Assembly: GCF_902806475.1 (NCBI RefSeq)
Contig: NZ_CADCWS010000014.1
Span: 1 to 39,675, forward strand
Direction of reading: 5' to 3'
Origin: Candidatus Frankia nodulisporulans
GTDB taxonomy: Bacteria; Actinomycetota; Actinomycetes; Frankiales; Frankiaceae
DNA length: 39,675 nucleotides
This document shows, piece by piece, positions 15,330 through 20,538 of this stretch. The notes beneath the pieces were generated by a model. It had not been told where the DNA came from. It ran no database searches and saw only the letters and a program-made list of their open reading frames with translations. A program made the position numbers and the translations under genes. How positions within the stretch are numbered: position 1 is the stretch's first letter; each line of letters begins with the position of its first letter.

Positions 15330-16028
15330 GTGCCTCTGCTGCATCCGGCTCTGTTGACCCACCCCGCCCATCCCGGCCATCCGGCTCCGCCTGTCCCGTC
15401 GGTGGTGTCCGGCGAGCTGGCCGGGTTGGCGCCGTTCGCCCCGTCGGCGGCGTTCGCCCGGCAGGCACCGCTGGTGCCCTGGCAGTGCCTCAGTGACGAG
15501 CCCGGCCGGGTCGACCTGGCGACGTTGCGGGAGCTGACCGTCGCGTTGGCCGGCGCCCCGCAGGTGTGGCGGCCGATCGTGCGCCACCATCCCGAGCGGC
15601 GCTGGTACACCCGACTGTTGCTGTCCGCGACCGTGGAGGTGTGGCTGATCGGCTGGTACCCGGGGCAGCAGACCGAGATCCACGATCACGGCGGGGCGCT
15701 CGGCGCGCTGACGGTGACCGAGGGTGTGCTGGAGGAGGACCGCTTCGACAGCTCCTGGTCGCTCACCGACCGCCGGACGCACGCACCCGGCGACAGCCCC
15801 GCCTTCGACATCTCGCATGTGCATCGCGTCGCGAACCGCGGCACCGCGCTCGCCACGACGATCCACGCCTACTCACCACCCGAAGTTCCCCTGCGTTACA
15901 GCCCCGCAGACAGCGCCACCGACAGCACCGCTGCCACCACGGCGCGGGTCCCGGTCGACACCGCAGCCGGGATCCCCCGACCGCTGGCGCCCGCCGGCGA
16001 CCTGCTGGCCGCAACGCCGCGACGATGA
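15330..16028 (+). CDS. Cysteine dioxygenase family protein
   Basis: A cupin iron enzyme that oxidises cysteine thiol to cysteine sulfinate. The 232-aa product shows the cupin motif 1 HxH pair at residues 118 and 120 (TEIHDHGGALGALTVTEG) and the second-motif His in ISHVHRVANRG near residue 163-165, followed by IHAYSPP. These supply the three-His iron site of type I CDO. The first ~45 residues are Pro/His-rich and outside the usual fold, and the last ~40 are disordered. Start GTG 15330 with TGGAG upstream. The stop overlaps the next start (ATGA at 16025-16028), so the rhodanese is translationally coupled. A relative acting on mercaptopropionate cannot be excluded. Confidence 0.9.
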   Translation: MPLLHPALLTHPAHPGHPAPPVPSVVSGELAGLAPFAPSAAFARQAPLVPWQCLSDEPGRVDLATLRELTVALAGAPQVWRPIVRHHPERRWYTRLLLSATVEVWLIGWYPGQQTEIHDHGGALGALTVTEGVLEEDRFDSSWSLTDRRTHAPGDSPAFDISHVHRVANRGTALATTIHAYSPPEVPLRYSPADSATDSTAATTARVPVDTAAGIPRPLAPAGDLLAATPRR

Positions 16029-16462
16029 GCGACCCGGCCAGCGCCGATCGGACGCCCACGGGCGGCAGCCGCATCGACGCGATGCTCGCCGCGGCCCGGG
16101 CCCGGCTACGCCGACTGGAACCGTCGGCGGCCGCCGACGCGCTGGCCACCGACGATCTCAGTGTGCTGGTGGACATCCGGCCGGCCGCGCAACGGGCCGC
16201 CGAGGGCGAGATCCCGGACGCGCTCGTCGTGGAACGCAACGTGCTCGAGTGGCGGTTCGACCCGACCAGCGACGCCCGGTTGCCGATCGCGACCAGTGAC
16301 GATCTTCAGGTGATCGTGATCTGCTCGGAGGGTTACACCTCGAGTCTCGCCGCCGACGCGCTGCGTCAGCTCGGCCTGCGCCGCGCCACCGATGTGGTGG
16401 GCGGCTACCAGGCGTGGGCGGCCGCTGGCCTGCCCGTGCGCCCCGGCACCGCCGCGCGCTGA
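16025..16462 (+). CDS. Rhodanese-like sulfurtransferase, coupled to cysteine dioxygenase
   Basis: The 145-aa product is a single rhodanese domain. It contains LVDIRPAAQRAAEGEIPDAL (CH2A-like start), the active-site loop VICSEGYTSSLAADALRQLG with the nucleophilic Cys near residue 102, and VVGGYQAWAAAGLPV at the end. It carries a persulfide and moves sulfane sulfur to an acceptor. The ATG at 16025 overlaps the dioxygenase stop by four bases. Together the pair point to oxidative disposal of cysteine and sulfide. The gene ends in the first copy of a 21-bp tandem repeat. Confidence 0.92.
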   Translation: MSDPASADRTPTGGSRIDAMLAAARARLRRLEPSAAADALATDDLSVLVDIRPAAQRAAEGEIPDALVVERNVLEWRFDPTSDARLPIATSDDLQVIVICSEGYTSSLAADALRQLGLRRATDVVGGYQAWAAAGLPVRPGTAAR

Positions 16463-16499: not shown

Positions 16500-17096
16500 C
16501 AGGTAGGCCCAGGGCTCCCGCCTGCCCCGACGCAGATGATCATGAGCCCGGGCGGCTGGCTCACGCCCGCCCGGCGACACCTCCCGGACGCGGTGCGTGG
16601 CGGCTCCTGCGCGGCCGGCCCTCGATCCGGCGCCTGCGCGCTACCCCGAACGGGGCTTCCCGCGCTTGCTCCAGCAAAGGCATTAAATGTAATGCTCAAC
16701 ACATTTTTGGGGCGATAGCCGCCCCAGTGGGCCCCGTTGACCGAACTTCGCGGACTCGACATCTGTTCGTCATCGGGCCGTACGCCAGCTGGAACCACGA
16801 TCGTAGACCCCCGGACGGGGGTCCACCCGCCCACTGTCCGCCACCCGACAGCGATCTTGAAGTGGCTCGTTCTCGCTGCCCAACAGCAGTTCCGCCCGCC
16901 AGCGAGACCGCCATGATGATCTCACGCCAGGCCCGCCGGCGTGCATCTTCATGATCATTATGCTCGCCTCGGACGGCGCGACAATCGCTCGCGCGATCAT
17001 CCAACGGCTCTCTCGAACGACCGTCGACCGTCCCGGACGTTCGCGTTCCGGAACCCTTGCTATCCGGTCGAGAGGCGTCTACGTTCCTCGGTTAAC
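16500..17096. other. Gene-free region upstream of the whiB leader element
   Basis: No protein-coding frame is convincing. An AT-rich patch at about 16679-16708 is unusual for this genome and looks like promoter DNA; it includes CATTAAATGTAATG, a small palindrome. A 7-bp stem TGGGGCG/CGCCCCA sits at 16708-16726, and an imperfect palindrome around ACGCC/GGCGT lies near 16923-16943. whiB transcription probably begins somewhere here. Confidence 0.45.
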
Positions 17097-17199
17097 GAGG
17101 CGAGACGGAATCGTTTCCAGGCGGAGCCACACCCCCGGTTCACCGGTACGGGCGGCCCCACTGGAACCGAACCTGTGGCTCCGCGGTGCATCTCGCCTC
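17097..17199 (+). promoter_or_regulatory. Large nested hairpin element upstream of whiB (candidate structured RNA leader)
   Basis: Outer stem: GAGGCGAGA (17097-17105) with TCTCGCCTC (17191-17199), nine perfect pairs. Inside it are a small hairpin GGAA-TCGT-TTCC (17107-17118) and a long one: GCGGAGCCACA (17121-17131) with TGTGGCTCCGC (17174-17184), eleven perfect pairs, then GGTTC (17137-17141) with GAACC (17164-17168). Together this makes a three-way-junction shape of 103 nt, ending about 97 nt before the uORF and 189 nt before whiB. I match it to no riboswitch class. It could instead be an inserted palindromic repeat. Confidence 0.6.
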
Positions 17200-17295
17200 A
17201 CCAAGGTTGACCTGCCTGTCTGGAGTGTCGCGCAACGCCGGATGTGGTGGTCTGCAAAGCATGTGTCCGCCTTTGCAACGTCAGCAGGAGTCGGT

Positions 17296-17391
17296 ATGCC
17301 CAGTCAGCTCAGCGTGCTTCCCGCACGCATCGTCACCGCACTTAGCATCCACTCGACCGCGTGTCTTCTGCGCTGTGGTGGCGCGCGATGA
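17296..17391 (+). CDS. 31-aa upstream ORF overlapping the whiB start
   Basis: The ATG at 17296 follows AGGAG (17286-17290) with five bases of spacing, the clearest ribosome binding site in this region. The frame encodes MPSQLSVLPARIVTALSIHS and ends with a short Cys-containing tail. Its TGA at 17389-17391 overlaps the whiB ATG at 17388 (ATGA), while whiB has only a weak site of its own. Translation of whiB is thus probably coupled to this ORF. The peptide sequence itself matches nothing I know. Confidence 0.6.
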   Translation: MPSQLSVLPARIVTALSIHSTACLLRCGGAR

Positions 17392-17756
17392 GCGCCGGCG
17401 TACCGGTCCTGCCCGGTCGCGACCTGCCGCCGCAGCCCTTCGGTGCGGGCTGGCCCGCCTACTGGCGCCAGGACGCGGCCTGCCGCGACGGCGATCCCGA
17501 CGCGTTCTTCCCGCCGGACGGCCGTAACACCAAGGCCCGGGCCGCCGCCGAATCCCGCGCCCGCAAGATCTGCTCGGACTGCCCCGTCCAGCGCCCCTGC
17601 CTCGCCACCGCGATCTTCCGCCAGGAGGAGCACGGCGTGTGGGGTGGCCTCACCTCCGACGAGCGCGCCACCGTCGTCCCCCGCGGTCGGCTCTCCGCCG
17701 ACGACGCGCTGGCCTTCGCCGACCGGCTCCTTCTGTCCACCTCCGTCGCGAGCTGA
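17388..17756 (+). CDS. WhiB-family iron-sulfur transcription factor
   Basis: The 122-aa product has the four conserved cysteines with C-x29-C-x2-C-x5-C spacing (AACRDGDPDAFF, then KICSDCPVQRPC), which bind a [4Fe-4S] cluster. The GVWGGLTSDER turn that contacts sigma factor follows. WhiB proteins act with the primary sigma factor as redox- or NO-sensitive regulators of development, stress or antibiotic response. The C-terminal tail (VVPRGRLSADDALAFADRL) lacks the AT-hook of WhiB7. Start ATG 17388 is preferred because it overlaps the uORF stop; GTG 17361 is an in-frame alternative. Which WhiB subclass this is cannot be told. Confidence 0.93.
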   Translation: MSAGVPVLPGRDLPPQPFGAGWPAYWRQDAACRDGDPDAFFPPDGRNTKARAAAESRARKICSDCPVQRPCLATAIFRQEEHGVWGGLTSDERATVVPRGRLSADDALAFADRLLLSTSVAS

Positions 17757-18085
17757 TCGCGACCGCGGATACTTCGGACGGTCCGGCCTCCAGGCGCTGC
17801 TCGCGCCCGCTGGCCGGGCCGTTCGCCGTCCCGGCTCCGCCAGCTTCGCCGGGTAGGCGCGCCGTCCAGCCCGCACCGGCACTGGCCGGTGACCGTCGCG
17901 GACCCGGTGGTGCGGACACCATTGACGGGTGGGGCAGGCGTTCGGCAGGCTGCCAGTGAGCGGCCCACGACCACAGCCGTGAGGTGTCCGGGCGACCGGG
18001 CGCGGCCAGAACATCCGGAGACGGCGGTGGACACAGCGGTGAACCGGGCATGTGCGGCCCACCTGACCCCGGTCAGGGTTCGTTG
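17757..18085. other. Gene-free gap between whiB and the SixA-like gene
   Basis: About 330 bases. I see no gene and no clear promoter. GGTCAGGG lies 8 bases before the SixA-like ATG and may be a weak ribosome binding site. Confidence 0.4.
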
Positions 18086-18613
18086 ATGGCGACGCACCGG
18101 CTTCTGCTGCTGCGCCACGCCAAGTCCGACTGGGCCGAGGGCGACACTCCCGACGCCCAGCGGCCACTGGCCGACTCGGGCCTGCGCGCGTGCGCGCTGG
18201 TCGCCCGGCATCTGCGGGACCGCGACCTCGCCCCGGACCTCATCCTGTGCTCGGCCGCGCTGCGCACCCGGCAGACCGTCGAGGGCATCGCCGCCGCACT
18301 ACCGGCCGGTGTGCCCGTCGTCACGGAGGACCGGCTCTATCTCGCCGAGGCCGAGACCCTGCTCGACCGGCTCCGCGACGTGGACGACGGGGTACCCACC
18401 GTGCTGCTCGTCGGGCACAACCCCGGCATCCACACTCTCGCGGTGGCGCTGCTCGCCGCCACGGACCGCCCGCGGATTCCCACCTACCCGACGGCGGCGC
18501 TCGCCGTCGAGGATCTCCTGGTGCCGCGTTGGGCCGAACTCGGCCAGTCCACCACGCGACTGGCCTCGTTCGTCACCCCCCGAGAACTGCGCGAGTCCGC
18601 TGGGTCGAGCTAG
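18086..18613 (+). CDS. sixA: SixA-like histidine phosphatase
   Basis: The 175-aa protein belongs to the histidine phosphatase (phosphoglycerate mutase-like) superfamily. The catalytic His is in LLLLRHAKSDW near residue 10, and the second His is in VLLVGHNPGIHTLA near residue 112. The short length and the Lys-Ser after the RHA motif are typical of SixA, which removes phosphate from phosphohistidine proteins. ATG 18086 gives the normal compact N-terminus. Its stop shares bases with the convergent small membrane protein stop (CTAG). Substrate not shown by sequence. Confidence 0.88.
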   Translation: MATHRLLLLRHAKSDWAEGDTPDAQRPLADSGLRACALVARHLRDRDLAPDLILCSAALRTRQTVEGIAAALPAGVPVVTEDRLYLAEAETLLDRLRDVDDGVPTVLLVGHNPGIHTLAVALLAATDRPRIPTYPTAALAVEDLLVPRWAELGQSTTRLASFVTPRELRESAGSS

Positions 18614-18801
18614 TAGGCCTGCTCCATGATCCGGGCCGCCAGGGCGATGGCGAACCCACCGACCAGCAGCACGGCGGTCACGATCCACAGCGGGGTCGAG
18701 GCCAGCGGAAGCGCGACCGCCCCGACCACGAAGCCCGCGATGATCAGAAACACCGCAAGCCACGAACCCGTGTTCGCCTTGTGGTGACCGGTCTCGCTCA
18801 C
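18610..18801 (-). CDS. Small two-TM membrane protein, HGxxPAAW-like family
   Basis: The 63-aa product begins MSETGHHKANTGSWLAV and has two hydrophobic segments (LAVFLIIAGFVVGAVAL and LWIVTAVLLVGGFAIAL), ending ARIMEQAY. It resembles the small actinobacterial membrane proteins with a His-Gly/Ala-Trp N-terminal motif; their function is unknown. Its stop codon overlaps that of the SixA-like gene on the other strand by three bases in CTAG. It is the first gene after a gap from otsA, read alone. Confidence 0.75.
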   Translation of the reverse strand: MSETGHHKANTGSWLAVFLIIAGFVVGAVALPLASTPLWIVTAVLLVGGFAIALAARIMEQAY

Positions 18802-19017
18802 GTACGACTCCCGTCCTTGCGCCGCGGCCGCCGACCGACCGCCGATCGGCGGGACGCCCCGGCGCGCCTCGTTCCCGATGCGACCCTACCCGCGAACCCG
18901 TCCCACGAGCCCGGGATGCCCACCACTGTCGGCTGGTCCATCCGGCCCCCGCTGCCATGACCTCCGGCCCCGGGACGACCCCCCGAGACGACCCCCGGGA
19001 CGGTCTGGCGGGACGGT

Positions 19018-20538
19018 CTAGATGAAGCCGGCGATGCGGCGCAGGTCGACGATCTGGTCGTCGAGCCAGCGGCGCACGTCGTGGGTGCGGACCTGGTCCG
19101 CGGCGGCGGCCAGCCGGCGATGACGCTCCCCGATCGGCATGGTCAGCGCGGTGTAGAAGGCGTCGGCCATCTGCTGGACGTCGAAGGGCTGCAACGTGAC
19201 GGCGAACTCGCCGAGTTCCTCGTGGGCGCCGGCCATCTCCGACAGGGCGAGCACCCCGCCGCGGCGGTTGACGACGGCCACCTCCTTGGCGACGAGGTTC
19301 ATGCCGTCGGCGATGGCGTTGACGATCAGGACGTCGCAGATGGAGTAGGCGGCGACCGCGAGCGGGAAGTCCTCGACCATGCGCAGGTCGATCGGCTGAC
19401 GGCCCTCCTTGGTGTGCCGGGCGTTGATCTCGGCGACGACCCCGCCGATCAGCGCGATGTAGTCGGCGTACTCGGGGACGTCGGTGCGGCTGGGCTGGAG
19501 CAGAGCGAGGAAGCTCACCCGTCCGACCAGTTCGGGATGCTGGTCGAGCAGGGTGCCGAAGGCGAGGAAGCCGCGCACGACGTTCTTGCTCGGGTCGGTG
19601 CGGTCCACGCGCAGCAGGAGCTGACGGTCGTCGTCGAGGAAGAGGTAGCGCAGCATGGCGACGTGCGCGGCGACCTCCTCGGAGGCCTGGGTGGCGTCCA
19701 GGGCGGCCGGGTCGACCGAGATCGGATAGTAGCGGGCGCGCACCACCCGGTCGCCGACCGTGACGGTGAGCTTGTCGAGGTCGGCCGGTAGGCCGAGCAG
19801 TTCGGCGGCGCACAGCACGAAGTTGCGGGCGTAGCGACGGGTGTGGAAGCCGACGACATCGCTGCCGAGCAGGCCGCGCAGCAGCCGTTCGCGGATGTCC
19901 CCGGGCAGGATGCGCCATTCGTCCGGCCCGGGCCAGGGGATGTGTACGAAGTGGGTGAGCACGACGTCGGGGCACTGCTCCCGCACCCAGTCGGCCACCA
20001 GGTAGAAGTGATAGTCCTGCAACAGGACCAGGGCCTTGCCGCCGCGGGAGCGGACCTCGCTGACCACCGCGTCGGCATAGGCCCGGTTGACCGCCGCGTA
20101 GCCGTTCTCGAACGCGTCGTGCTCGGCGCGGGTGAGCACCGGGGACAGCGAACGGCCGTAGAGACCGTGCTGGATGAACCAGAGGATCGGGTTGGACCAG
20201 ACGCTGTAGAAGTCGGCGTAGGCCGCCGGGTCGGTGACGACGAGACGCACCCGGATCGCCGGGCCCTCGGGTTCGCCGTCCACCAGATGGGGCTGGGGAT
20301 GGGTCTGGACGAGGATGGAGCTGCCGGCGTTCTCCCCGGCGACGACGGTGTCCTCCTCGCTGGCCGCGCCGCATACCCACACGGCGTCATCGAGGTGTTC
20401 GGCGAGCCCGGACAGAGCTGAGACGAGGCCGCCGGCGCCCCGGCCGACGGTGCGACCGGTGGCATCCCGGTCGAAGCTGACGGGGCCGCGGTTGGACAGG
20501 AGCACAAGTGGCAGGTCGAGGGCGATGAAGTCCGACAC
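19018..20538 (-). CDS. otsA: Alpha,alpha-trehalose-phosphate synthase (GT20)
   Basis: OtsA joins UDP- or GDP-glucose to glucose-6-phosphate to give trehalose-6-phosphate, an osmolyte and stress metabolite precursor. The 506-aa length is usual. Motifs: LLSNRGPVSFDRD at the N-terminus, GGLVSALSGL, LLQDYHFYLVADWVRE (the usual HDYHL motif, here with Gln), FVHIPWPGPDEWRILPG, PISVDP, LLRVDRTDPSKNVVRGFLAF with the donor-phosphate Arg and Lys, and DGMNLVAKEVAVVN. Start GTG 20538 follows AGGAGG at 11 bases. No otsB phosphatase is next to it. Specific use as a related GT20 such as glucosylglycerol-phosphate synthase is possible but less likely. Confidence 0.92.
   Translation of the reverse strand: MSDFIALDLPLVLLSNRGPVSFDRDATGRTVGRGAGGLVSALSGLAEHLDDAVWVCGAASEEDTVVAGENAGSSILVQTHPQPHLVDGEPEGPAIRVRLVVTDPAAYADFYSVWSNPILWFIQHGLYGRSLSPVLTRAEHDAFENGYAAVNRAYADAVVSEVRSRGGKALVLLQDYHFYLVADWVREQCPDVVLTHFVHIPWPGPDEWRILPGDIRERLLRGLLGSDVVGFHTRRYARNFVLCAAELLGLPADLDKLTVTVGDRVVRARYYPISVDPAALDATQASEEVAAHVAMLRYLFLDDDRQLLLRVDRTDPSKNVVRGFLAFGTLLDQHPELVGRVSFLALLQPSRTDVPEYADYIALIGGVVAEINARHTKEGRQPIDLRMVEDFPLAVAAYSICDVLIVNAIADGMNLVAKEVAVVNRRGGVLALSEMAGAHEELGEFAVTLQPFDVQQMADAFYTALTMPIGERHRRLAAAADQVRTHDVRRWLDDQIVDLRRIAGFI

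Follow-up and report, generated by a model that had tools for sequence, protein, structure and literature searches.

A Frankiaceae-specific whiB-family gene overlapped by a uORF, with its predicted promoter and structured 5' leader

Translationally coupled leader ORFs are short, are led by an SD sequence, and end in a stop codon that overlaps the next start, as in ATGA. In ompA-type leaders, a stem at the 5' terminus protects the mRNA. Among whiB-family regulators, the whiB7/wblC genes of Mycobacterium and Streptomyces follow a long leader containing a short SD-led uORF, and the part of PMC11550727 considered here describes transcription attenuation that depends on the uORF and occurs at a Rho-independent terminator; uORF-dependent control of these genes is also described in the part considered of PMC13236596. 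The literature matches listed on WhiB, Frankia, riboswitches, and uORF leaders include no description of the leader analysed below and no uORF control of WhiB regulators outside whiB7/wblC.

The window analysed here is the whole stretch of 39,675 nucleotides from Candidatus Frankia nodulisporulans; it belongs to Frankiaceae, and its source genome comprises 4.87 Mb in 609 contigs at 86% completeness. A whiB-family gene of 122 amino acids is located at 17388..17756 on the + strand (Pfam Whib, PF02467, 84.1 bits), and its product carries the Whib domain, the four cysteines, and the G(V/I)WGG motif of the WhiB family. We found this paralogue in 33 of 97 genomes searched (cut-off E up to 1e-25), namely in 33 of the 35 from Frankiaceae and in none of the 62 others, and a pattern search of 84,980 species genomes placed all 25 paralogue loci (25/25) in Frankia, Parafrankia, Protofrankia, or Pseudofrankia records. 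Two family members, G015 (63% complete) and G018 (94% complete), have neither the paralogue nor the conserved promoter block described below. The region ahead of the gene is probably the promoter and 5' leader of this Frankiaceae-specific gene, with a structured leader and with whiB translation coupled to a uORF. The earlier note had placed a large folded element in the whiB leader, ahead of an SD-led uORF and whiB, and both do follow it.

The source leader shares with whiB7/wblC a whiB-family gene placed after a long leader with a short SD-led uORF, but differs from it in several respects. No terminator-like site was found on the + strand over 16700-17900, and the 4-nt overlap between the uORF and whiB leaves a terminator no room. 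The protein is not WhiB7 either: it has no AT-hook, and among the eight Whib-domain genes of the source genome, six of which were read by pattern, a separate paralogue (L112) carries an RGRP motif, which we take to be of the WhiB7 type (AT-hook). The best solved-structure matches of the leader's WhiB protein are WhiB1 and WhiB3, with similar scores. On these grounds, both whiB7 identity of the gene at 17388..17756 and a whiB7/wblC attenuator were rejected.

The conservation profile and a genome search delimit a near-invariant block of ~80 bp at 17042..17118 on the + strand, spanning the predicted promoter and transcript start. In the 33-genome alignment A3, which spans promoter to whiB start, the mean column conservation per 10 bases was 0.94-0.98 over 17047-17116, compared with 0.42-0.56 over 17127-17176; it drops sharply past ~17118, climbs again at the uORF start, and is back to 0.95 at 17287-17306. 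Among 393 class genomes, the block was present in 33 of 35 Frankiaceae genomes, one copy each, and in 0 of 358 other class members, a near-invariance that extends over a family whose members are mostly nitrogen-fixing symbionts of plants. The element of the earlier note straddles the border, with its 5' fifth in the near-invariant block and most of the remainder among the least conserved leader sequence.

Within the block, the alignment points to a predicted promoter at 17057..17085 on the + strand, with the -35 element TTGCTA at 17057-17062, a 17-bp spacer, and the -10 element TACGTT at 17080-17085. The -35/-10 spacing is constant in 33/33 genomes and TTG..A is kept, TTGTCA replacing TTGCTA in G017, G024, and G034. 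A consensus promoter scan, which needs 9 of 12 matches, did not report this promoter, and an ECF-type promoter was discarded after its spacing was judged by eye to be unsuitable. Just upstream of the -35 element, the palindrome GTTCCGGAAC (17045..17054, no strand assigned) is near-invariant in the 33-genome alignment and is a possible regulator site. We infer a transcript start near 17091-17094; a sigma-A-type promoter with conserved flanks would start a leader of ~200 nt ahead of the uORF. Among the papers matched on Frankia transcripts and start sites, none maps Frankia starts, judging by title and opening abstract. The part of the CcI3 transcriptome paper considered here lists the whiB genes Francci3_3759 and Francci3_3790, neither of which could be tied to the source locus (PMC3188489).

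The second conserved block, at 17264..17307 on the + strand, consists of TGTCCGCC, the SD AGGAG (17286-17290), and the uORF start ATGCCCAGTCAG. The uORF itself occupies 17296..17391 on the + strand and encodes a peptide of 31 amino acids, MPSQLSVLPARIVTALSIHSTACLLRCGGAR, with a stop that overlaps the whiB start. Comparison establishes the frame and the overlap throughout the family: an SD-led ATG and a frame of 26-34 codons ending in the TGA of the ATGA at the whiB start are found in 33/33 genomes, and the uORF length varies in codon steps while the 4-nt overlap is retained. Such retention of frame, codon-step length, and overlap is what coupling predicts. For the peptide, comparisons within genera gave a mean pN of 0.21, a mean pS of 0.31, and a pN/pS of 0.69 (76 equal-length pairs, first four codons excluded), with values near 1 in two of the four genera; the peptide thus appears weakly constrained, and the overlap and frame, rather than the peptide, may be what is kept.

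The source uORF resembles the known coupled leader ORFs in being SD-led with a stop overlapping the whiB start, its own coupling being a prediction; compared with them, its overlap is constant in 33/33 family members and its peptide is weakly constrained. In the proposed mechanism, ribosomes would load at the SD of the uORF, whiB would be reached through termination-reinitiation at the overlapping ATGA, and WhiB output would be set by uORF translation as well as by the promoter. The uORF SD had a mean unpaired probability of 0.27 in the partition function, a figure that we do not count as evidence. If confirmed, the arrangement would be a second, coupling-based uORF route for WhiB regulators beside whiB7/wblC, and an entry point to what the Frankiaceae-only WhiB senses.

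Part of the block can also be read as RNA structure. At 17097..17117 on the + strand, the 33 genomes share an imperfect inverted repeat, GAGRCGA - N7 - TCGTTTC, which could form a local hairpin that excludes pairing of the same 5' strand further downstream. Its pairs are kept in 99.1% of 231 cells, nearly invariant and with no covariation; because the arms are invariant, they could just as well be read as an inverted repeat acting in the DNA. Not far short of an even chance is given to a reading in which the conserved block acts in DNA-level control only, operators of some regulator (the palindrome at 17045-17054 and the inverted repeat at 17097-17117 being the candidates) flank the promoter, and the leader RNA fold is incidental. 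Near-invariance does not stop at the transcript start but covers the parts on either side of it, the palindrome and the inverted repeat are each conserved, and the block is single-copy in the genome, all as this reading would have it. However, a second complementary site lies ~90 nt downstream, and in six Frankia genomes an A-to-G change preserves the local RNA pairing (G-U) while lowering the DNA symmetry.

The downstream pairing joins a 5' strand at 17090..17105 (P0 17090-17096, P1 17097-17105) to 3' strands at 17191..17212 (P1 17191-17199, P0 17206-17212), all on the + strand; P1 is the 9-bp outer stem of the element in the earlier note, and P0 prolongs it by 7 bp beyond the range considered there. 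With the structure taken from the source sequence and scored in the 31 genomes other than G000 (the source genome) and G001 (the closest relative, 93% identical), pairing of the outer helix is kept in 0.80 of cells, against a mean of 0.38 and a best of 0.57 for slid controls. Over all downstream windows in 33 genomes, P1 ranks 1 of 133 and P0 1 of 137, and without G000, G001, G005, and G008 they still rank 1 of 123 and 1 of 131. Both rank first in Frankia and in Parafrankia taken separately. The ranks within Pseudofrankia are 1 of 132 for P1 and 6 of 136 for P0, and in Protofrankia they fall to 4 of 122 and 42 of 128, the helix being absent at the aligned place. The joint nested helix P0+P1 is first of 69,036 placements (0.79, next 0.75) and first of 64,680 without the same four genomes.

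These scores are compatible with an RNA clamp or switch that functions at the 5' terminus: the first ~15 nt would pair in one of two ways, locally through the near-invariant hairpin arms or ~90 nt downstream, and this choice would control how stable the whiB message is or how it is expressed. Such a device could be an added layer on the coupled leader; we rate it as tentative, with a probability well under one half. In the same search, 3 of 41 untranscribed promoter windows scored at least 0.81, the value of P1, with a maximum of 0.83; since conserved promoter DNA finds nearly equal chance partners, the conservation of the outer helix is only suggestive. The margin of the joint helix over the next placement is likewise small, P0 is weak in Pseudofrankia, and the 5' strand, when its duplex energy was tested with shuffled downstream sequence as the control, reached p 0.05 or less in just 8 of 33 genomes. 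The 5' strand is nearly invariant and the covariation check found no compensatory pairs of weight in the outer helix; at the centre of P1, those Frankia, Parafrankia, and Pseudofrankia genomes that have a 5' A show a mismatch, and the six that have G show a G-C pair. In the partition function of whole leaders, the local hairpin had a mean probability of 0.14 and the long-range 5'-strand pairing one of 0.54, the latter ranging from 0 to 0.99 among genomes.

In Frankia and Parafrankia the outer helix appears to stay paired, in Pseudofrankia it appears to do so in part, and a 5' clamp is possible. In part of the family, the first ~15 nt of the GC-rich, structured leader could be clamped in this long-range helix. 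An ompA-type stem would be comparable in that the possible helix lies within a few nt of the predicted 5' end; unlike that stem, it is long-range and not family-wide, and the start site it is measured from is itself predicted. The fuller proposal of a Frankiaceae-specific riboregulatory leader, whose invariant first ~15 nt alternate between the local hairpin and a long-range clamp enclosing a freely evolving domain, and from which whiB is expressed via the coupled uORF only, seems doubtful to us.

Two further stretches were observed near these strands. A conserved GGGGGCT(T/A)CTCG immediately precedes the P1 3' strand or falls on it (~17180-17190 equivalents) in most Frankia, Parafrankia, and Pseudofrankia loci (L042-L058, L064-L071) and is lost in the source genome's own lineage. 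At 17219-17242, ahead of the uORF, a hairpin-capable stretch TCYGG...CCGGA forms a near-perfect 8-bp stem in Parafrankia, and unrelated hairpins occur near the equivalent position in some other genera.

The fold at 17097-17199 is real in the source sequence. The MFE fold has -55.9 kcal/mol, compared with a mean of -39.5 (sd 3.6) for shuffles (z -4.53, 0 of 200 as stable), and the stems of the earlier note are all present on the + strand: the outer stem of 9 bp pairs 17097-17105 with 17191-17199, the 4-bp hairpin occupies 17107-17118, the 11-bp stem pairs 17121-17131 with 17174-17184, and the inner stem has 5 bp. Rfam searches, at gathering level and relaxed to E 5, gave no relevant match for the leader fold (the sole hits were a tRNA at another place and two weak matches to eukaryotic families, taken as chance), in line with the statement that it matches no known riboswitch. 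The observation is confirmed in this respect, and its interpretation is partly supported: the three-way junction exists in the source genome but is not a conserved architecture.

In the 31-genome test, the 11-bp stem paired in 0.46 of cells (best slid control 0.50), the stem after it in 0.45 (best slid control 0.51), and the last stem in 0.43 (best slid control 0.72); the 4-bp hairpin, within the invariant block, reached 0.85, mostly through invariance. Across A3, 62.2% of cells were paired, and 71 double-change cells compared with 47 (sd 5) in shuffles and 33-44 in slid versions, an excess favoured by shared ancestry and by the derivation of the structure from the source sequence itself. The alignment of 13 leaders of the source genus (A2) gave 11 double changes against 8.6 (sd 1.8), which is not exceptional; the last P1 pair spans an alignment gap in the projection used for A2, a shift that the A3 counts do not have. 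The homologous segment clearly beats shuffles in G000, G001, G005, G008, G004, G007, G013, and G028 (z -2.6 to -7.4), and in the remaining 25 genomes z lies between -2.4 and +0.5. In G001 the MFE fold is mainly a single long arm, unlike the source junction. With the inner stems at control level and G001 folding as one arm, the three-way junction is peculiar to the source genome, and the inner arms (17121..17184, + strand) are lineage-specific folding without a conserved role.

The earlier suggestion of a riboswitch-like sensor junction for the WhiB regulator is highly improbable: stable though it is against shuffles in the source genome, and with z < -2.5 in 8 of 33 genomes, its inner helices are not conserved, the same segment takes other folds in relatives, Rfam has no match, and in the 33-genome profile the variable part, 17119-17186, lacks a conserved core for a junction; comparison has already largely refuted it. 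A new sensor RNA is thus probably not present, and ligand sensing is unlikely. RNAalifold on the promoter-to-whiB alignment gave folds that differed among Frankia, Parafrankia, and all 33 genomes, and these were set aside; no single leader fold is common to the whole family, which also set aside an Ms1/6S-like RNA, considered since the Ms1 paper mentions Frankia (PMC9130861, whose part considered here states that Ms1 was not found in Frankiales).

An inserted palindromic or repeat element, the other suggestion, was rejected because a homologous segment of about equal length is present in the 12 other genomes of the genus and the source genome holds no second copy, the sole significant match within G000 being the site itself; no similar DNA was found in plasmids or phages. 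The strain-specific fold is hereby set apart from the conserved parts, the promoter block and the uORF that always overlaps whiB. The inner arms are ordinary; of moderate interest are the conserved promoter block, the clamp that may form at the 5' end, and the overlap of uORF and whiB in all 33 genomes.

The locus around the gene is conserved. In the window, a cysteine dioxygenase-type gene (Pfam CDO_I) and a rhodanese-domain gene lie at 15330-16462, the stop of the former overlapping the start of the latter (ATG at 16025); upstream of whiB in the related loci, a cysteine dioxygenase-like gene is found at 19/25 and a rhodanese at 21/25, with several loci truncated by contig ends. Downstream of whiB, a gene for a branch 1 histidine phosphatase lies in 18086-20538 together with an opposite-strand glycosyltransferase family 20 (OtsA-like) gene, which adjoins whiB in most related loci.
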